64,000 nucleotides of DNA from Desulfobacteraceae bacterium (lineage in GTDB: Bacteria > Desulfobacterota > Desulfobacteria > Desulfobacterales > Desulfobacteraceae): contig JAAELK010000004.1 in assembly GCA_024226935.1 (NCBI GenBank), forward strand, positions 1-64,000. The letters are read 5' to 3'. Below are positions 10,164-63,745 of this stretch, piece after piece. Position 1 is the first letter of the stretch, and every line of letters begins with the position of its first letter. The translations under genes and the position numbers were made by a program. Below the pieces are notes generated by a model. That model ran no database searches. It had not been told where the DNA came from and saw nothing but the letters and a program-made list of their open reading frames with translations.

Positions 10164-10306
10164 AAAAAGACCTCCTGTCCAGATTAAGAAATTAAATTAT
10201 GCTTTTACAGGGCCAGATACTTGATAATGAGCCTTGGCCTTTTTTTCTTGAGATATTGCCTGGAACCATCCATTAACGGCTTTTGATTGATACCCTGGGC
10301 AATTAA
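10164..10306. other. Leader of the acyl-CoA operon
   Basis: Non-coding stretch upstream of the SCP2-DUF35-MaoC gene. On the minus strand an AGGAGG-like Shine-Dalgarno (complement of cctcct at 10171-10176) precedes the start at 10163. I see no convincing -24/-12 (sigma54) element and only weak -35/-10 pairs. Confidence 0.4.
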
Positions 10307-10470
10307 TTAGTGCTTGACCGAAAACTCACCCATCTGCCGCGTTGCTACAAAACTCTGCCAAATTATAAAATCGGGGCTCATGTACAAAAGTACACTCCGG
10401 TTTCAAACTTTCTTGCGCCTTGCATATGGGCAAGTTTTCATCCAAGCCCGGGTTTTCGGTCAGCCACTAC
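10307..10470 (+). repeat. Dispersed hairpin repeat A, copy 1
   Basis: A 164-bp intergenic element that begins TTAGTGCTTGA and ends GCAGCCACTA-like. The two halves are imperfect inverted copies of each other: CCCATCTGCCGCGTTGCT in the left half matches the complement of the right-half segment GCGCCTTGCATATGGG. The centre is a GTAC...GTAC dyad at about 10383-10394. The element also occurs at 19319-19482 (opposite orientation) and 39824-39973, and as a half copy at 55166-55224. It contains a meaningless 69-codon open frame. It resembles a MITE or a large REP-type palindrome. No target duplication is obvious. Confidence 0.85.
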
Positions 10471-10717
10471 ATAAAACAAAAAGCAACAAATGTGCCAATC
10501 TCGAAGATAAGGAATTTTATTAAATATTTCAAATAGTTATGGACTATATCGTTTTGTAATCGACGATCAACAGGTATCAATATATTGATAAAAAACCAAA
10601 TATTGTGATTTTTATGAAGAACAGACCGGGCTGGAAATGCAGTTCACCGATTGAACAATTATCGGGTGTTTTAAAATTACACCGGACTGAAGGCTAAAAA
10701 CTACCCACCACCCGATA
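10471..10717. other. AT-rich intergenic stretch
   Basis: No gene is visible between repeat A and the methyltransferase. An 8-bp inverted repeat ATCGGGTG (10661-10668) / CACCCGAT (10709-10716) lies just after the methyltransferase stop codon on its strand. It could be a weak transcription end, but no T-run follows. Confidence 0.3.
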
Positions 10718-19285: not shown

Positions 19286-19318
19286 CCTGTCTTGGTTTTA
19301 CCTTAATAATCTATATAT

Positions 19319-19482
19319 TTAGTGGCTAACTGAAAACTCGTTCTTGGATAAAAACTTGCCCATATGCAAGGCGCAAGAAAATTTGAAACCGGAGTGTACT
19401 ATAGTACATGAGGCCCGATTCTATAATTTGGCAAATTTTTGCAGCAACGCGGCAGATGGGTGAGTTTTCGTTCAAGTACTAT
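19319..19482 (-). repeat. Dispersed hairpin repeat A, copy 2
   Basis: A 164-bp copy in opposite orientation to copies 1 and 3, starting TTAGTGGCT and ending next to the ALDH stop codon (stop at 19483-19485). The centre has the dyad GTACTATAGTAC. It contains all blocks of copy 1: GCCCATATGCAAGGCGCAAG, TTTGAAACCGGAGTG, AGCAACGCGGCAGATGGGTG. Confidence 0.85.
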
Positions 19483-21444
19483 TTATTTACGGCCCTTTTT
19501 AGCCAGTTTCTTAACATAGGTCTCAAGCTTCAGCCCGTAAAAGGCGCTTTTGATAAGCCCTGATATCCTGCCAGGAGAATACAAAGCCCGGGTCAGATCT
19601 GAAAATATCCGGTATTTTTTGGCAGTATAGGGAAACCAGTTGGCTTCCATCTTTGCACTGTTCTGATCTATTAGCACAGCCTTGATATTGGCAAAGGCAT
19701 AAAAGCCGAACTCGCCCTTATATCGGCCGAACCCGCTTTTTTGAACCCCCCCAAAGGGCAGGGCATGATTGCCTTCGGTGAGCATCACATTGTTGATGGA
19801 AACATTACCTGTATAAATCCTGCGGGCCACCCGGTCTGCTCTTTTAAGATCCTGGGACCAGACACTGGCTGACAACCCATATTCAGGATCATTGGCCAGA
19901 TCAATAGCCTCGGCTTCACTGGAAAAGGTATAGATGGGAAGCAAAGGGCCAAAATTTTCTTCCCGGTCAATGAGCATCTCACTTGTCACCCCTTCAACTA
20001 TCATGGGGGGCACAAACTCAGACCGGCCGTCCCAATCTCCTCCTGTAAGAAAGACGGCGCCCTTTTCTTTGGCATCGGCCACCTGGGCCGCAATGGCTTC
20101 AACCTGGCCCCTGGTGGTCATGGGACCTATGTCGGCATTACCGTCATCATCGGTTGCCTGGACCAGTTTTAAGGTTTCTTTAATAAGATTTTGTTTAAAT
20201 TGTTCATAGATACTATCCTGGACAAACAATCGTTCCACCGAGGTGCAGGACTGGCCTGTTGTGGTAAAAGCCCCCCAGATGGCACCGGCCACGGCCCGGT
20301 CGATATTGACATCCTCAAAAACCACCATGGGATCTTTTCCCCCCAGTTCCAGCTCAACGGGAATCAGATATTTGGCAGCTCTTTCCATGATCAGTTTTCC
20401 CACGGTCTGGCTACCGATCAAAAAGATTTTATCCGGCTTTCCATCCACCAGGGCGTTGCCGATCTTTCCTCCTTTACCATAGACAACCTGGACCCAGCCG
20501 GGAAGAAATCCTGCCTGGCTGAGCATATCTTCCACAAGCCCTTTTAAGGGGGTATCGCTGGAGGGCTTGAAAACCACGGCATTTCCGACGATAAAGGCCT
20601 GGCAAATGGGAACGATGGCCTGGTAAAAAGGATAATTCCAGGGAGAAATCAAGAGAGCTGTCCCCAGGGGTTCAAAATAAACCTTTGATTTTTTACCCAT
20701 CAGGGCAAAGGGAGTGGGCACCTTACGATCGGACAGAATCTTAACCGCATTTTTTTCCAGATAATCCAGAAAATCCAGGACCCCGAAAATTTCTGCTGTA
20801 ATTGCATCAAAACGGGATTTTTTAGTATCCGCCTGGAGGCGATCAAGGATATATTCCTGATTCTTAAGAATAACGGCCTTGAGGTTTGAAATAAACTGAA
20901 GCCTTTTTTTCACCCCCCAGTCCCGAATCTCGGGGCCTGATTCCCTGGCCACTTTGTAAATTTTTTCCACATCTTCGGATGTGGGACTATCCAGGTTAAC
21001 AGGCGTTTGCTTCACCGGCATCCCATCCTCGTTGACAAAAAATTTCGGGTGCCAACCGATGACATCATAAACCTTATTGCCTTCATAACCAGAAGCTGTA
21101 AGATTGGCATAATAGGGAGATAAGGTGGCCCCCTTGAGCCCTATCTCAAGCATTCTCAGCCCTGCTCCTATAAAAGAAGGAAAAGAATTACTATGGCTAC
21201 AAAGCTTGAGAAGAAGGGTGATAACCCATTTGGGCATCCATCTTAGGACAAAAAAAACCATCTGCAGACCGTTAAGGTCATCTGGGGACAGGTATTTTGC
21301 CATTCGGTCAATATGGTTAATACATCCGGTGGATGAAAAAGAGGGAGATACATTGGTTCCCGGAAGAATCACATCACCTGTTTTTAACAACCCCTTTAAC
21401 TGGGATTTGGAAAAATATTTTGAAATCATCATTTTATCTATCAT
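19483..21444 (-). CDS. Aldehyde dehydrogenase with extra N-terminal domain
   Basis: A 653-aa protein. Residues about 165-620 form a NAD(P)-dependent aldehyde dehydrogenase of the class-3/fatty-aldehyde type: SPWNYPFYQAIVPI, FLIGSQTVGKLI, VELELGGKDPMVV (catalytic Glu) and TTGQSCTSVERL (catalytic Cys). The first ~150 residues are extra for this family: LSPDDLNGLQMVFFVL, a hydrophobic helix near WVITLLLKLC, and GATLSPYYANLTASGYEG. This segment recalls helical small-subunit-like regions of GMC alcohol oxidases; that is inference. The upstream GMC gene ends 1 base before this start, so alcohol-to-aldehyde-to-acid oxidation by an associated pair is likely. AAGGAG precedes the start. Confidence 0.9.
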   Translation of the reverse strand: MIDKMMISKYFSKSQLKGLLKTGDVILPGTNVSPSFSSTGCINHIDRMAKYLSPDDLNGLQMVFFVLRWMPKWVITLLLKLCSHSNSFPSFIGAGLRMLEIGLKGATLSPYYANLTASGYEGNKVYDVIGWHPKFFVNEDGMPVKQTPVNLDSPTSEDVEKIYKVARESGPEIRDWGVKKRLQFISNLKAVILKNQEYILDRLQADTKKSRFDAITAEIFGVLDFLDYLEKNAVKILSDRKVPTPFALMGKKSKVYFEPLGTALLISPWNYPFYQAIVPICQAFIVGNAVVFKPSSDTPLKGLVEDMLSQAGFLPGWVQVVYGKGGKIGNALVDGKPDKIFLIGSQTVGKLIMERAAKYLIPVELELGGKDPMVVFEDVNIDRAVAGAIWGAFTTTGQSCTSVERLFVQDSIYEQFKQNLIKETLKLVQATDDDGNADIGPMTTRGQVEAIAAQVADAKEKGAVFLTGGDWDGRSEFVPPMIVEGVTSEMLIDREENFGPLLPIYTFSSEAEAIDLANDPEYGLSASVWSQDLKRADRVARRIYTGNVSINNVMLTEGNHALPFGGVQKSGFGRYKGEFGFYAFANIKAVLIDQNSAKMEANWFPYTAKKYRIFSDLTRALYSPGRISGLIKSAFYGLKLETYVKKLAKKGRK

Positions 21445-33128: not shown

Positions 33129-33179
33129 GTTTTGTTGTGGGCAACCCAATGGAAGACCCTGGGCGGCCCATGGCCGTTA
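33129..33179 (-). repeat. Stop-codon-linked repeat B, copy 1
   Basis: Read on the minus strand the element starts with the TAA stop of the methyltransferase gene and continues CGGCCATGGGCCGCCCAGG, then TTCCAT and TGCCCACAACAAAA. It is nearly identical to 63695-63745, which begins immediately after the sulfotransferase stop. TGGGC and GCCCA form the base of a hairpin. Confidence 0.8.
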
Positions 33180-34121
33180 TTTAAATATTTTCTTCCAGTT
33201 CGGTTCCACCCGGTCACAATTTTGGAAACTATTTTTTACGGCATGGATACCCTGGAGACGATCATTGAACACCACCCTTGAAAACCCAACCTCTTCCAGC
33301 CGTTTCATGGCATTTTTAATGAACCTGTCCTGGTGTTGAATCTTTTTGGGGCTGCCCGTGTAATGAAAAAGACGGGAAACAGGTTTCATCACCCGGAAAA
33401 GCTGGGCATAAAAAATTTTGCCGTACAAATGGCCTGTGGCCGAGGTAAATCGTGGAGGATCATGGATAACAGAATCGAAAGTTGAATCATCCAACTCATT
33501 AATATATTGGGTAATATCTGCATTGATCAAATTAATATGGGTGTGATCGGTCCGACCCAGGCCGATCCTATCAAAACCATCTGCCATCAGCCAGGGATTT
33601 TGACACCGAATCTGCATCACCCCCCGACTCTTTTCCGTTGATACCACTTTTTTAGCCCCGGCTTTCAGGGCAAATACAGCAGAATAACCCAATCCCCCGC
33701 AGGTATCTAAAACCTGATCTCCGGGCTTTACCACCAGTTTGGTTTTTAGCCCGGCATCCACCAGGGGATCAATATCCTTGGACCGATGCATTTTGATTCC
33801 ATCAATTTCAAGGGTGGGGACAGTATCCGTGGGAACCAGTTTATAATAAGCGTCTGTCCGGACCTCAATGGGGAAAAGGCCTTCGCAACTTAAAACAAAA
33901 ACCTTTTGCCCAGAGGATCTAACAGGATCGAGTTCCTTTATATCAATTTCCAGAGTTTCATCCAGCACCAGACAATTTTGCCTGATTTCAAACCGCTTAC
34001 TGGATAGATTCAGGTCCAGGGAAAGTTCAATAAAATTATTGTCGGCCTCCACTGCATCCAATATTTTCTGGACCAGTTCAGCGTGGAAATAATACAATGT
34101 TTTTTTCATCTTCTTGTCCAA
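33177..34121 (-). CDS. Predicted SAM-dependent methyltransferase (COG2521-like)
   Basis: A 314-aa protein. The N-terminal ~130 residues are mostly beta and of uncertain fold. The Rossmann methyltransferase core follows, with motif I LDTCGGLGYSAVFAL (about residues 147-161), VVSTEKS (motif II) and FDSVIHDPPRF (the DPPR motif typical of N-methyltransferases on nucleic acid or protein amides). This architecture matches predicted methyltransferases common in archaea and some anaerobes. The start is TTG at 34121 or ATG at 34109; AAAGG overlaps the end of asnS and suits the TTG. It lies 6 bases after asnS in one transcript. Confidence 0.8.
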   Translation of the reverse strand: MDKKMKKTLYYFHAELVQKILDAVEADNNFIELSLDLNLSSKRFEIRQNCLVLDETLEIDIKELDPVRSSGQKVFVLSCEGLFPIEVRTDAYYKLVPTDTVPTLEIDGIKMHRSKDIDPLVDAGLKTKLVVKPGDQVLDTCGGLGYSAVFALKAGAKKVVSTEKSRGVMQIRCQNPWLMADGFDRIGLGRTDHTHINLINADITQYINELDDSTFDSVIHDPPRFTSATGHLYGKIFYAQLFRVMKPVSRLFHYTGSPKKIQHQDRFIKNAMKRLEEVGFSRVVFNDRLQGIHAVKNSFQNCDRVEPNWKKIFK

Positions 34122-38111: not shown

Positions 38112-39701
38112 ATGTTAAAAGAGCTTGTTGTAAATTGGACCCCCCATGAAACCCGCGTCGCCCTCCTTGAAAACGGCACCATAGTAGAGGTTTTCATTGA
38201 AAGAGAAGACGAAAGCAGCATTGCCGGAAATATCTATAAAGGAAGGGTCCAACGGGTCCTTCCAGGTATGCAGGCAGCCTTTGTGGACATTGGATTTAAC
38301 ATGGCTGCCTTTATCTATGTGGATGATGTTCTGGACACAGCAAGCCATACAATGTATCAAAAATTTGAACAGGACACAGATATTGAAAATGATGGACCAA
38401 CAGATGTGTCCGACATGGAAACCAGCGGAATTGAAAAATCCCACAATTCCTGGAAGGCAGACCTGACACCTGAATGCAACATCGAAGATCTTCTGACAGA
38501 AGGACAGGAAATCCTGGTCCAGGTGGCCAAATCTTCCATCGGGACAAAGGGCCCCAGAGTCACCACCCATATTTCCCTTGCCGGCCGATACATGGTCCTC
38601 ATGCCCACGGTAGATCACATCGGCATCTCCAAACGCATTGAAGATGAAGAAGAAAGAACCCGGCTCAAGGACCTTCTTTTGCCCATTCGAAAAAATAAGT
38701 TCGGTTATATTTTCAGGACCCAGGCCCAGGGCATCGACCAGGCCACCATCAAAAAAGAGATCGATTTTCTTAATAACACCTGGGACGACATCATGACTCG
38801 GAGCCGTAGCCTTTCGGCAACCGCTCTTGTGCACAAAGATCTGACAGTAACTTTTAGGGCAGTCCGTGATCTTCTGGCCAACGAAGCTGACAAACTAGTT
38901 ATTGACTCCAGGCAAGAGTATAAAAATGTCCAGAATTTTTTAAAAAGGCTCATGCCCGACGTAAATTTGAGCGTTGAACTTTACCAAGGCCAGGAATCTA
39001 TTTTTGATGCCTATAATATCGAAGCCGATGTGGCAAGATCCCTGAAGAAAAAAGTCTGGCTCAAATCCGGCGGATATATCATAATTGAACAGACCGAAGC
39101 CCTGATAGCAATCGATGTAAACACGGGTAGATATGTAGGCAACCATAATTTTGATGAAACCATTTTGAAAACCAATCTTGAAGCCGTCAAGGAAATTGCA
39201 TACCAGATAAGGCTGCGCAATATGGGCGGCATCATCATCATCGACTTTATTGACATGAAAAAAGAATCCCACAAGGAAAAAGTCATGTCCCGCATGAACG
39301 GGGCCATGAAAAAGGATAAAAGTCAGACAAATATCCTTCCTTTGACGGAACTTGGCCTGGTTCAAATGACCAGGAAAAGAACCAGAAGAAATCTGACCAG
39401 AACCCTGTGCAAGCCCTGTTTTTATTGCAACGGCAACGGCCACCTACTATCGGGTAAATCCATCTGCCACAAAATATACAGAGATCTTATTTCTGAAGCC
39501 AGTGATATCATGGGCAATCATTTTACCGTAAAGGTCCATCCTGAAATTGCCCAACTCTTCCACGGCAGAGAAAAACACTTGATCGCCTCTCTGGAAAAGC
39601 AAATTTCCAAACCCATTGCCATCTACCCGGAACCCCATTATCACATTGAGGAATACCATATTTTTGAATCCCTGGTAAAACAGGACAAAACGCAAGAATA
39701 A
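38112..39701 (+). CDS. rng: Ribonuclease G (RNase E/G family)
   Basis: A 529-aa endoribonuclease that matures rRNA and decays mRNA. N-terminal S1 domain (GNIYKGRVQRVLPGMQAAFVDIG) carries a ~50-residue acidic insert (about residues 85-135). The DNase I-like catalytic domain has the metal Asp residues in IAIDVNTGRYVG and IIIIDFIDMK. The Zn-link CKPCFYCNGNG supports dimer/tetramer formation. Length and end match RNase G rather than RNase E. It is translated together with the radical SAM gene. Confidence 0.96.
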   Translation: MLKELVVNWTPHETRVALLENGTIVEVFIEREDESSIAGNIYKGRVQRVLPGMQAAFVDIGFNMAAFIYVDDVLDTASHTMYQKFEQDTDIENDGPTDVSDMETSGIEKSHNSWKADLTPECNIEDLLTEGQEILVQVAKSSIGTKGPRVTTHISLAGRYMVLMPTVDHIGISKRIEDEEERTRLKDLLLPIRKNKFGYIFRTQAQGIDQATIKKEIDFLNNTWDDIMTRSRSLSATALVHKDLTVTFRAVRDLLANEADKLVIDSRQEYKNVQNFLKRLMPDVNLSVELYQGQESIFDAYNIEADVARSLKKKVWLKSGGYIIIEQTEALIAIDVNTGRYVGNHNFDETILKTNLEAVKEIAYQIRLRNMGGIIIIDFIDMKKESHKEKVMSRMNGAMKKDKSQTNILPLTELGLVQMTRKRTRRNLTRTLCKPCFYCNGNGHLLSGKSICHKIYRDLISEASDIMGNHFTVKVHPEIAQLFHGREKHLIASLEKQISKPIAIYPEPHYHIEEYHIFESLVKQDKTQE

Positions 39702-39823
39702 ATATTCTTTCATAAATTGGATTCCAGGGGTTGTTTAGATGATACGATGATAATCAACGGTTTTTTTCACGATATTTATATTGAGTGCTTTAACAAAAGC
39801 GTGTACACTAAAATAAGCTTTAA
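39702..39823. other. Intergenic stretch after rng
   Basis: AT-rich and without coding pattern. No strong terminator hairpin with a T-run is seen after rng. Confidence 0.3.
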
Positions 39824-39973
39824 TTAGTGCTTGAACGAGAACTCACCCATCTGCCGCGTTGCTGCAAAAACTTGAAATCCTCATGTACTAGAGTACACTC
39901 CGGTTTCAAATTTTCTTGCGCCTTGCATATGGGCAAGCTTTCATCCAAGCACGGGTTTTCGGGCAGCCACTAA
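39824..39973 (+). repeat. Dispersed hairpin repeat A, copy 3
   Basis: A 150-bp copy in the same orientation as copy 1, starting TTAGTGCTTGAACGAGAACT and ending GGGCAGCCACTAA. AATTA flanks both ends as an inverted pair. Compared with copy 1 it lacks ~14 bases in the left half before the central GTACTAGAGTAC dyad. Confidence 0.85.
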
Positions 39974-40099
39974 TTAACCTGATATAAAATATTCTGGAAC
40001 TTGCGTCGCGACTTAAAATAAATCTCAAGCTGGATTTTTAGCAATACTATAATTGAGATCAAGAGACGTTTATTAATTAAGGTAAATATTTACAATGAC

Positions 40100-40879
40100 A
40101 TGATCCGCTCTTTTGTTCAAAAACTTGGTATGAGAACCATCTCTGGGGGACGATTTTGCTTTACCTTGATAGAGCTTGTATGGGACATCTTAAGCGGATT
40201 TTACAAACTGACAAACAAGGCTGTTTTTGCCGAAATGATTCGTCAAATTCATTTTATTGCGGTTCAGACCTTACCTCTCATATTAATTTGCGCGCTTGCC
40301 ATGGGTTCTATTGTTGTCCATTTCCTGCTGAACCTGTTAACCAGTTTGGGAGCCTATGATGAAATTGGTAAATATTTAGCCTCAACCATGCTCAATGAGA
40401 TTGCACCAATTGCAACTTCAATAATAATTCTTGTACGGGTTGTACCAGCGATAACAGCTCAGCTTTCAATTATGAAAATAACTAACGAAACCACCACCTT
40501 CAAAATGCTGGATATTGATATAAGAAAATATGTTTATCTTCCAAGGGTGTTTGCATTCGGTTTTGCGGGCTTTAGTTTAAGCATCATCTTTGCTGCTACG
40601 GCCCTTGTGGGGGGCTTTGTTATCACAGGTCACAGACATGATATTACATGGGAAAATTATATTGATCGTATAATATATGCGCCGGGACTCAAAGAGGTTC
40701 TGATCCTGTTTTGTAAACCTTTTCTAATGTCTGTGGGAATCGCATTTTCTTCACTGGTCAACTGCATGCATGCTGAAAATTCATTTGCTAAAGTCCCGGA
40801 AATACTAACCAGGGGAATGATGATTTCCATAATAGTAATAATATTTATGGAAGGATTGTTTTTTTTCATTGTGAGGTAA
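40100..40879 (+). CDS. MlaE-family ABC permease of a lipid transport (Mce) system
   Basis: A 259-aa inner-membrane protein with about five to six hydrophobic segments. The MlaE-type core is FAEMIRQIHFIAVQTLPLILICALAMGSIV, then EIAPIATSIIILVRVVPAITAQLSIMKITNETTTF (shown in part) with the conserved Glu in the coupling region. Mla/Mce systems move phospholipids or other lipids between membranes. It is the first gene of a four-gene operon: permease, degenerate ATPase-like protein, MCE protein, lipoprotein. The start ATG 40100 has no strong Shine-Dalgarno. Confidence 0.88.
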   Translation: MIRSFVQKLGMRTISGGRFCFTLIELVWDILSGFYKLTNKAVFAEMIRQIHFIAVQTLPLILICALAMGSIVVHFLLNLLTSLGAYDEIGKYLASTMLNEIAPIATSIIILVRVVPAITAQLSIMKITNETTTFKMLDIDIRKYVYLPRVFAFGFAGFSLSIIFAATALVGGFVITGHRHDITWENYIDRIIYAPGLKEVLILFCKPFLMSVGIAFSSLVNCMHAENSFAKVPEILTRGMMISIIVIIFMEGLFFFIVR

Positions 40880-49187: not shown

Positions 49188-50207
49188 ATGAAAGAAACCC
49201 AGGAATTTACCGGAAAAGATGTAGACGCTGCTATAAAAAAAGCTTGTTCAGCCTTGGGCATTGCCAAGGGAAAGCTGGACTATCAAGTCCTTTCAGCAGG
49301 CGCTTCCGGTATATTCGGAATTGTAGGCCGAAAGGATGCCAAGATAAAGGTAACCCTTTCAAATATAGAAACCACCGATGCTGAAGAGTTAGAAGGAATC
49401 AAATCCATTGTAGATGAAGCCTTTGGAGAAGATACCAGGCTGGAAGCAGATACAGCACCCAAAAAAGCAGCTCCAAAAAAAGCAGCTCCAAAAAAAGCGG
49501 CTCCAAAAAAAGCAGCTCCAAAAAAAGCGGCTCCAAAAAAAGCAGCACCAAAAAAAGCAGCTCCAAAAAAGGCAACTCCAAAAAAAGCAGCACCGGAAGC
49601 AGTAGATCCGGAACCGGATACCGAGATGGAACAGGTTCCTGATATGGATGACGACAATGGAAAGTGGGAATTAACTGCTGCTCCCATTGATGTCCCTCCA
49701 CCAGAAGACGTGACCCAGGAATCCATTGATCTGGGCAAGGAAGCCTTGCAGCAAATGGCAAACCTGATCACCGAGGATGCCATAGTCGAGGCGGAAACCG
49801 ACCAGGACAGGCTCACCCTTAGAATCACAGGAGGAAATTCCGGTATCCTCATTGGCCGCAAGGGGCAAACCCTGGATGCCATGCAATTTTTGACCGATAA
49901 AATTATTAATCGGAAAAGTGATGCCCGGGTCAGAGTAAAGGTCGATATTGAAGGGTATATGGAAACCCGGAAAACTAACCTCAAGCATCTGGCCCATAAA
50001 ATGGCGGAAAAAGCAAAAAAAACCGGACGCCCGACCACCATTAATCAGATGAGTGCCCAGGACCGACGAATTGTGCACCTTGCCCTCAAGGATGACGTCC
50101 AGGTAAGAACACAGAGCATGGGAGATGGCTATTACCGACGTCTGGTAATCTTCCCCAAAACGAAAAATTCCTTCAGGGGAAAGCGGCGATTTAGAAAACA
50201 AACATAA
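49188..50207 (+). CDS. jag: Jag/KhpB-type RNA-binding protein with (PKKAA)n linker
   Basis: A 339-aa protein: Jag_N domain (about residues 1-62; EFTGKDVDAAIKKAC...GIFGIVGRKDAKIKV), a basic linker of nine PKKAA-type units (residues 91-135), an acidic stretch, a KH domain (about 200-265; ILIGRKGQTLDAMQFL) and an R3H domain (RRIVHLALKDDVQVRTQSMG). KhpB/Jag proteins bind RNA and affect cell envelope growth and division. The alanine-lysine-proline linker is like histone H1 tails and may bind nucleic acid. AGGAGG precedes the start; its stop overlaps the mnmE start by one base. Confidence 0.95.
   Translation: MKETQEFTGKDVDAAIKKACSALGIAKGKLDYQVLSAGASGIFGIVGRKDAKIKVTLSNIETTDAEELEGIKSIVDEAFGEDTRLEADTAPKKAAPKKAAPKKAAPKKAAPKKAAPKKAAPKKAAPKKATPKKAAPEAVDPEPDTEMEQVPDMDDDNGKWELTAAPIDVPPPEDVTQESIDLGKEALQQMANLITEDAIVEAETDQDRLTLRITGGNSGILIGRKGQTLDAMQFLTDKIINRKSDARVRVKVDIEGYMETRKTNLKHLAHKMAEKAKKTGRPTTINQMSAQDRRIVHLALKDDVQVRTQSMGDGYYRRLVIFPKTKNSFRGKRRFRKQT
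49458..49592. repeat. Nine tandem 15-bp units in jag
   Basis: Units of the form CCAAAAAAAGCAGCT, nine in a row with silent changes and one Ala-to-Thr change in unit 8, coding for PKKAA repeats. Copy number is probably variable. A long antisense frame across the region is a composition artefact. Confidence 0.95.
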
Positions 50208-55165: not shown

Positions 55166-55224
55166 TCAGTGCTTGAACGACAAGTCACCCATCTACCGCG
55201 TTGCTGCAAAAGTTTGAAAGCCCC
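55166..55224 (+). repeat. Dispersed hairpin repeat A, truncated copy 4
   Basis: The left ~59 bp only: CAGTGCTTGAACGACAAGTC, CACCCATCTACCGCGTTGCT, GCAAAAGTTTGAAA. The sequence then becomes unrelated, so this is a half element and cannot form the full hairpin. Confidence 0.75.
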
Positions 55225-62550: not shown

Positions 62551-63694
62551 ATTATCTTCAGATTATTTTATTAATCAGGCAATAGAAAAAACAGGGTTGG
62601 AAGATTTTGGTAGTCAAACGTACAAAGAGGGGTTGGATGTTCTAATTAATTCGTTAAATAATGACATTGAACTTTCCGAGGGAACTGCGGGTTATTTTCA
62701 AAATCAGATTATGCAGCTTCTTATAAACAGGATTGAAGTTACTCAACTTTTTAAAGACTATCCTGAAATTTCAGATGAAATAATTGATGAGCCTATCTTC
62801 ATTGTAGGACTGCCTCGTTCAGGTACCACCATTTTACAGACCTTACTGGCTCTTGACCCAACATCCAGATATCTTAGAAATTTTGAAACCGCAGGCCCCT
62901 TCTGTCCACCGGCAGAATTAATTCCGGAATCAGTAGATCAGAGAATACAGCTTTGCCATGAGGGCATGGAAAGCTTTTTTAGCATGGCTCCAGTCCTACG
63001 TGGAATTAATGGAATCAATTTCATGGCTCACGGTACAGCCGAATGTCAAAATCTTATGGCCCATGAATTTGTTCATATGGGATGGAGTTCAGGGTCAAGC
63101 CTGTTTTCCCATGGAAACTGGGTCGGTGAATGCAATATGAAATCAGCCTATCAATGGCACAGGCGGTTACTTCAGATCCTGCAATGGAAACTACCCAATG
63201 AGCGCTGGGTACTTAAAGCCCCAATGCATCTGTTCGGATTGGATCTCTTAAAAGAAACCTACCCTGATGCCAAAGTGGTGTTTACCCATCGCCCCCCCTT
63301 TGATGCTATGGTTTCTGGTGTCAGTATGGTATATCATTGGACGCAATTTACAACAGGGCAAGCAAATATTCAGGCTATTGCTGAATGGTATCCAAAGCTT
63401 TGGTCAAAAGGTCTTGAACGAGCCTTATCAGCTAAAAAACATATAGATACTAATCAATGCCTGGATATTTTTCATACCGATTTGTCGGAAGACCCAATCA
63501 AAACCATTGAACATATTTATAATCATTTTGATATCCCTTTTTTAAAGGGAGCTAAAAAAAGAATGAAGACCTGGCTAAGGGATCATCCAAGATCCAAATT
63601 TGGCGGCCATAACTACACACCTGAAAAATACAGCTTAAATGCAGACCAGGAAAAAGAAAGGTTTTCATTTTATAATGAGCAATTTGATCTGTAA
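62540..63694 (+). CDS. Sulfotransferase-family protein
   Basis: A 384-aa protein with the PAPS 5'-phosphosulfate loop FIVGLPRSGTTILQTLL (about residues 89-105) and the 3'-phosphate segment VVFTHRPPFDAMVSGVSMVY. It belongs to the large bacterial Sulfotransfer_3-type group found in mycobacteria and marine proteobacteria. These transfer sulfate to lipids, sterols or small alcohols. Sensor-controlled expression (tetR in the same transcript) suggests the substrate or product is the effector. It is followed directly by repeat B copy 2 and a strong terminator. Confidence 0.9.
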   Translation: MGIELSSDYFINQAIEKTGLEDFGSQTYKEGLDVLINSLNNDIELSEGTAGYFQNQIMQLLINRIEVTQLFKDYPEISDEIIDEPIFIVGLPRSGTTILQTLLALDPTSRYLRNFETAGPFCPPAELIPESVDQRIQLCHEGMESFFSMAPVLRGINGINFMAHGTAECQNLMAHEFVHMGWSSGSSLFSHGNWVGECNMKSAYQWHRRLLQILQWKLPNERWVLKAPMHLFGLDLLKETYPDAKVVFTHRPPFDAMVSGVSMVYHWTQFTTGQANIQAIAEWYPKLWSKGLERALSAKKHIDTNQCLDIFHTDLSEDPIKTIEHIYNHFDIPFLKGAKKRMKTWLRDHPRSKFGGHNYTPEKYSLNADQEKERFSFYNEQFDL

Positions 63695-63745
63695 TAACGG
63701 CCATGGGCCGCCCAGGAAGTTCCATCGGCCTGCCCACAACAAAAA
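63695..63745 (+). repeat. Stop-codon-linked repeat B, copy 2
   Basis: Begins with TAA immediately after the sulfotransferase stop: TAACGGCCATGGGCCGCCCA, GG, three differing bases, TTCCAT, a variable 5-mer, TGCCCACAACAAAA. It matches 33129-33179 (minus strand) in about 42 of 51 positions. Confidence 0.8.

Follow-up and report, generated by a model that had tools for sequence, protein, structure and literature searches.

Palindromic MITEs with ISNCY-type ends in a Desulfobacteraceae genome and their placement at stop codons

The imperfect hairpins that recur in the analysed 64,000-nucleotide stretch of a Desulfobacteraceae genome (the window) are, with a probability that we put at about 0.92, miniature inverted-repeat transposable elements (MITEs) that carry the ends of a clade of ISNCY insertion sequences, duplicate a TANNTA target and are moved in trans by a transposase of that type. 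All the defining features of a MITE that we tested are present save a clean empty site, and the ends mark the element as derived from the ISNCY clade. An anonymous repeat is now named and tied to ISNCY, a known but little-studied transposase family.

The source is a metagenome-assembled genome (MAG; G000, 6.09 Mb in 590 contigs, 95% complete). A preliminary description placed a hairpin element at four places in the window, and all four contain it, although the spans given there extended some way into the target duplications at both ends. Copy 1, of a 158-bp form, occupies positions 10310-10467 on the plus strand, with its left terminal inverted repeat GTGCTTGACCGAAAACTC at 10310-10327 (plus strand) and its right one, reading GTGGCTGACCGAAAACCC on the minus strand, at 10450-10467; it lies between TAATTA (10304-10309) and TACATA (10468-10473), which differ by one mismatch. 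Copy 2 is an inverted 158-bp form (19322-19479, minus strand) between two TATTTA duplications (19316-19321 and 19480-19485), and copy 3 is a 144-bp form (39827-39970, plus strand) between two of TAATTA (39821-39826 and 39971-39976). Two lengths, 158 and 144 bp, are thus represented among the full copies of the window. The fourth place holds a left half copy (about 55169-55222, plus strand), which matches positions 1-54 of the 144-bp consensus and ends 10 nt short of the palindrome centre. The consensus ends are GTGCTTGAACGAAAACTC on the left and GGGTTTTCGGTCAGCCAC on the right. The copies are indeed one repeat, but the term 'near-identical' used for them was generous, since copy 1 is 90% identical to copy 2 and 84% to copy 3. 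The exact contact of one copy with a stop codon, also noted in the preliminary description, is borne out as well: copy 2 adjoins the stop at 19483 of the open reading frame 19483-21444 on the minus strand because this TAA makes up the first three bases of the duplicated target, TAAATA on the gene strand.

The imperfect palindrome with its GTAC...GTAC centre is real, with an RNA fold of copy 1 at z = -4.0 that none of 200 shuffles equalled. With DNA parameters, copy 3 folds at z = -2.9 on the minus strand and at only -0.9 on the plus strand. That the interior is always palindromic was considered and rejected, as the fold z falls below -3 in only 34 of 66 interiors.

Across G000 we recovered 66 distinct marked sites after merging, 31 of which bear all four marks and 12 a single end alone. 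At least 40 matches came from a DNA similarity search, among the best 40 of its 71 candidates. Searching by pattern, we found the left core 46 times, the right core 41 times, the right end 44 times and the left end 63 times, against 0 or 1 matches for the reversed control patterns. The left core alone, at up to two mismatches, occurs at 46 places and its reversed control at none, so the repeat is not a chance match. Among the genus-mates, at E <= 0.01, G001 holds two matches (one full, one of 45 nt) and G002-G005 none; few copies without variation in presence, the situation that would have spoken against a mobile element, is not what is found at the species level. The 47 own elements bounded by both ends comprise 13 of 158 bp, 22 of 143-144 bp and six of 46 bp, with the remainder at 140, 126 (two), 69, 57 and 28 bp; the shortest, deletion forms of 28-69 bp, lack the hairpin tip. 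Short multicopy elements (28-158 bp, 66 sites) of this kind, with terminal inverted repeats and no space for a transposase gene, are what defines a MITE.

Partial copies have a pattern of their own. Among 16 that could be placed on the consensus, five of which rest on just 15-24 matching bases, 11 retain the left end, and none of these extends past the palindrome centre, seven breaking off no more than 12 nt from it; the other five retain the right end and all begin past the centre. Two copies cut close to the right end (L006 and L037) cross the centre, and the eight sites with the centre but one end missing are not all among the placed partial copies. The ends of the half copies fit breakage at the hairpin tip, assembly artefact being another possible source. 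Copies would thus appear to decay through loss of the tip or of one half, and half copies that end by the tip may be a natural record of long-palindrome breakage.

The preliminary description proposed a search for target-site duplications, and these are present at a fixed 6 bp, TANNTA. Comparing the six bases that precede GTG with the six that follow CAC, the two are identical in 22 of 47 own elements, against a mean of 4.3 and a maximum of 10 when partners were shuffled 1000 times, and in 60 of 87 elements from other genomes (mean 8.6, maximum 19, likewise over 1000 shuffles). Exact duplications are accordingly seen in under half of own copies. Where the inner NN is not palindromic, these two bases match directly between the flanks in 17 of 28 own elements and 48 of 63 others, and as reverse complements in 0 and 2, respectively; the flanks are therefore a true 6-bp TANNTA duplication rather than a continuation of the inverted repeat. 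A duplication of 8 bp was rejected, the constant G and C beside the six bases being part of the element. The base outside the duplication tends to be a purine (A39 G14 T18 C1 in own elements, A54 G40 T42 C16 in others). No clean empty site was obtained; the DNA downstream of the window copies is not conserved in the genus-mates. At one orthologous intergenic place of another family member, within a single genus, a MITE is present in two species (L091/L092) and 49-57 unrelated bases take its place in two others (L256-L259).

These duplications bear directly on whether the hairpins could instead be palindromes of the REP/BIME type, moved as single strands by a RAYT (Y1 tyrosine) transposase. REPs mobilised by RAYTs are not known to leave a target site duplication. 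The imperfect palindrome, the non-coding positions and the many copies would all suit such elements, but a 6-bp duplication is present, the element has no GTAG head, and both terminal inverted repeats are common to an ISNCY element. REP/BIME elements are intergenic palindromes too, with neither ends nor mechanism in common with the repeat described here. We hence regard the large REP-like palindrome, one of the identities first suggested, as extremely improbable, and the evidence sides with the other one, a MITE: terminal inverted repeats, a 6-bp duplication, many copies, and ends that an autonomous element also has.

That autonomous element is an insertion sequence of 1.84-2.08 kb, bounded by MITE-type ends and encoding an ISNCY-family transposase (NF033593). 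At two loci the ends lie 1890 and 1977 bp apart with transposases of 491 and 500 residues between them, which score 495 and 534 bits against NCBIfam NF033593.1 (ISNCY; cut-off 325); in one of them Pfam detects a DDE domain. Both ends are present at 0-3 mismatches (5 for one end of L188) at the query locus L106 and at six loci with near-complete transposases of 38-56% identity to it (L122, L188, L202, L205, L208 and L213; L079 is another view of L205). A transposase fragment at 51% identity (L225) has the right end only, and at 19 loci with transposases of 22-33% identity, some near contig ends, no ends were found at up to three mismatches. Within the taxonomic family of the host, the L205 transposase has counterparts at E <= 1e-20 in 19 of 86 genomes, mostly at 44-65% identity and some lower; the 19 include the genus-mates G001, G003 and G004, in which the matches are fragments. 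Eight of 12 family loci examined have both ends (0-3 mismatches) 1844-2079 bp apart, three of them with exact duplications; counting the copies with both flanks, the duplication is exact in 1 of 5 in the first locus set and 3 of 7 of the family loci. The terminal repeat, the TANNTA target and the 6-bp duplication of these insertion sequences are the same as those of the MITE, which differs in being 28-158 bp long and lacking the gene.

Two observations concern the wider ISNCY family. Several of its distant members (L206, L209, L215, L216 and L218) have a second end type, (A/G)TCCGGAAA replacing GA(A/C)CGAAAA. Furthermore, in L281, L282 and L283 and in copies in G422, G423, G428 and G462, the transposase is split near residue 150 into open reading frames of about 161-180 and 350 residues, with the break in L281-L283 at a run of nine A; as the same break recurs in several species, it suggests programmed frameshifting or slippage.

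A transposase with matching ends, as anticipated by the preliminary description, is thus found in relatives but not in the assembly itself: searches of G000 recovered no ISNCY transposase (best 4 of 6 candidates; 3 of 3 candidates with the L205 query). A multicopy insertion sequence could be absent from the assembly of a 590-contig MAG. From this absence, mobilisation in trans, or loss of the partner from host or assembly, is inferred, and the proposal that the element is moved in trans receives indirect support from matching insertion sequences in the same taxonomic family. We envision that the transposase of about 500 residues of a full-length relative recognises the terminal repeat of about 18 bp (GTGNYTGAMCGAAAACYC) and inserts at TANNTA, presumably by cut-and-paste chemistry, whereby those 6 bp would be duplicated. 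Having the same ends but no gene, the MITE would move only when such a transposase acts in trans.

The end pattern, with one mismatch at most allowed, is present in 38 of the 395 genomes from this phylum and coincides with ISNCY transposases, which are found in 14 of the 38 against 56 of the 357 other genomes (Fisher p = 0.003), or, at E <= 1e-40, in 7 of 38 against 16 of 357 (p = 0.003). Only three of these seven genomes hold the clade with matching ends (G215, G338 and G259), the other four (G194, G223, G299 and G300) having distant ISNCY only, and the co-occurrence therefore supports the family more than the clade. It may be argued that the ends are proper to a different, unseen transposase and that ISNCY elements merely have the same ones, as 24 of the 38 genomes with ends are without an ISNCY hit at E <= 1e-10. 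We consider this very unlikely: among the ISNCY loci examined, the ends, on both sides and with TANNTA-like duplications, occur only in the clade of 38-65% identity, and no other transposase gene was met between such ends at 16 loci read for open reading frames, among the matches listed.

In named genomes the exact degenerate end pattern marks at least 108 stretches, which, among the matches listed, include Desulfobacterota, Bacteroidota, Planctomycetota (Scalindua and another), Nitrosomonas, Propionivibrio, Parabeggiatoa and others. The interior of the window type (CCCATCT..GTAC..CCTTG) recurs in Scalindua (L130, L143, L147, L169, L184, L191 and L197) and at several Desulfobacula loci. As it is found in an anammox planctomycete, the MITE type itself, beyond its ends, is common to different phyla. 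At other loci (L085, L100, L108, L117, L145, L192 and others) the same ends surround unrelated, often palindromic repeats, with interiors of the types CATTGCGAG.., GTCATTTCGAC.., GGAATCC.. and ATCCGAA..; it is possible that MITE ends captured other repeats. A complete 135-bp MITE with a TATCTA duplication lies on a predicted viral contig from IMG/VR (L096, positions 193-327), its interior resembling that of a Desulfobacterales MAG (L174), and viral contigs are a possible route between hosts.

Next, we considered where the copies reside. Relative to open reading frames of at least 90 residues, called mechanically, 48 own elements comprise 25 in tandem, 17 in convergent and 3 in divergent positions, 1 possibly within a frame and 2 unplaceable. 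Copies would thus pile up in non-coding DNA, often at the 3' ends of genes, a bias that selection against damage to genes and promoters would be expected to leave. Stop codons were scored for elements with duplications differing by no more than two bases, 36 own and 76 others, the own set excluding L044 and L045 (G001), L059 (overlaps L028) and L082 (a duplicate of L001). In ten own elements, the TAG stop of an open reading frame is made up of the TA that closes the duplication and the G that opens the element, and joining the flanks without the element gives TAA in 8 and TAG in 2, as judged from the sequence. Such split stops (TA|A or TA|G) account for 10 of 33 non-genic own copies, compared with 15 of 233 sites in the background (p = 2e-4); in other genomes the figures are 10 of 70 and 44 of 782 (p = 0.009). 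A first background, from the window only and smaller, stood at 5 of 38. Any overlap with a stop is also enriched, at 13 of 33 own copies where the background has 46 of 233 (p = 0.023), and at 16 of 70 copies from other genomes where it has 81 of 782 (p = 0.005). Several of the reading frames with split stops are clear natural gene ends by family-model matches, including a glutaryl-CoA dehydrogenase next to L061 (matched at residues 1-387 of 387) and the HypB next to L016 (matched as far as 214 of 217). No family match was obtained for L009, L020 and L028, three of the ten proteins.

At an intact junction the first G of the element adjoins the duplicated TA, which is why it reads TAG, and an insertion into a TAA or TAG stop is therefore predicted to keep the stop of the gene. 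At about even odds, in our estimation, the insertions at stops are simply survivors: the element would insert at TANNTA at random, selection would clear genes and promoters, and TAA and TAG are common in AT-rich 3' ends. Congruent with this, genes are strongly avoided, with 3 of 36 elements buried in reading frames against 445 of 678 TANNTA sites of the same DNA. Restricted to sites within 30 nt of a stop, the split-stop excess in other genomes is not significant (10/26 against 44/171, p = 0.24), and lowering the reading-frame limit to 60 residues weakens the effects (p = 0.085 and 0.028 for own copies, 0.4 and 0.23 for others). The excess in own copies nevertheless persists within 30 nt of stops (10/22 against 15/87, p = 0.009) and when the flanking base must be a purine (10/31 against 15/171, p = 0.001; p = 0.03 for other genomes), on control backgrounds that are slightly smaller (225 own, 769 others). 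The split stops may reflect target choice, survivor bias or both.

More tentatively, and in our view at clearly less than even odds, the transposon family could be adapted to stop codons, with a target best written YTANNTAR and a built-in safe-haven strategy. The outer ends of YTANNTAR would read TAA or TAG, one per strand, and the near-invariant first G would rebuild TAG on the coding strand, so that an insertion into a stop codon would be silent, even between convergent genes. If true, this strategy would have helped the ends to reach many phyla, around interiors that are unrelated and often palindromic. The stop-codon pattern offers a simple, testable way for a transposon to settle in a compact bacterial genome while leaving its genes intact.

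The same placement could be read as retention for a host function (terminator, mRNA 3' stabiliser or small RNA), with mobility belonging to the past. The 17 convergent against 3 divergent positions would agree, yet survival alone predicts a bias to 3' ends. Similarly, two-sided changes keep the hairpin in 13 of 43 pairs across 27 elements (47 cells against 18.1 when shuffled and at most 8 when slid; 9 own elements, 1 from G001 and 17 from named Desulfobacula, Desulfobacter and Scalindua MAGs), for a fold derived from one member sequence, which favours that fold. Template switching can be a source of paired changes within a palindrome, and the consensus that RNAalifold itself derives pairs terminal repeat with terminal repeat and has just one two-sided pair. 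Terminator scans of copies 2 and 3 gave one weak 5-pair terminator-like site within copy 2 and none around copy 3 (39600-40150), leaving the suggestion that the hairpins end transcripts without support. Moreover, copy 2 is situated between the stop of its gene and a ready terminator-like structure outside the MITE, a separate 17-pair hairpin of the intrinsic type with a T-run, downstream on the minus strand (19288-19252). An Rfam scan of the window gave 0 matches, and the element is nearly absent from genus-mates. Aggregated, these points make a retained function unlikely, and we favour the mobile MITE of the ISNCY clade.

Several described systems are comparable. ISDol1 is named as a subfamily of ISNCY (PMC8147514). 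The 178-235-bp Chunjie MITE of Geobacter uraniireducens, likened here by description, also has full, shorter and many partial copies in one genome (PMC10969869). The MITEs of Candidatus Thiomargarita nelsonii, likewise a sulfur-cycle bacterium, are palindromic as well and have no identified parent insertion sequence, with 10-bp direct repeats reported for the hupL MITE, again compared by description, against 6 bp here (PMC4853749); relatives of the Thiomargarita group carry the ends of the present MITE (L118 and L173). Correia elements/NEMIS and RUP are likewise MITEs with TA at their ends, thought to be mobilised in trans; in RUP and the 155-bp Correia form, stop codons in all frames lie inside the repeat, whereas here the junction of duplication and first base rebuilds the stop of the host gene (PMC2229807). 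MITEAba12 is similarly tied through its ends to an autonomous insertion sequence, but to another one (ISAba12), and one described copy truncates its target gene, while the stop is kept here (PMC6382973). A further MITE has been assigned to an ISL3-type transposase (PMC11448079). In the part of the open-access literature covered (titles, beginnings of abstracts and passages), we met no described MITE of ISNCY and no stop-rebuilding transposon, and no papers matching the end sequence of the element or palindromic Desulfobacter MITEs; going by these searches alone, neither a MITE of ISNCY nor the rebuilding of stops would appear to have been described before.

The window also holds repeats of other kinds. 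A further pair of inverted repeats (CCCATGGC.GTTATT) lies at 33130-33181 and 63693-63744, and a portion of the sequence recurs after the MITE copy in L008, on its right flank; these perhaps constitute a second repeat family. Finally, a 15-bp tandem repeat (49425-49634) lies within the open reading frame 49188-50207 and by eye encodes Ala-Pro-Lys-Lys-Ala units.
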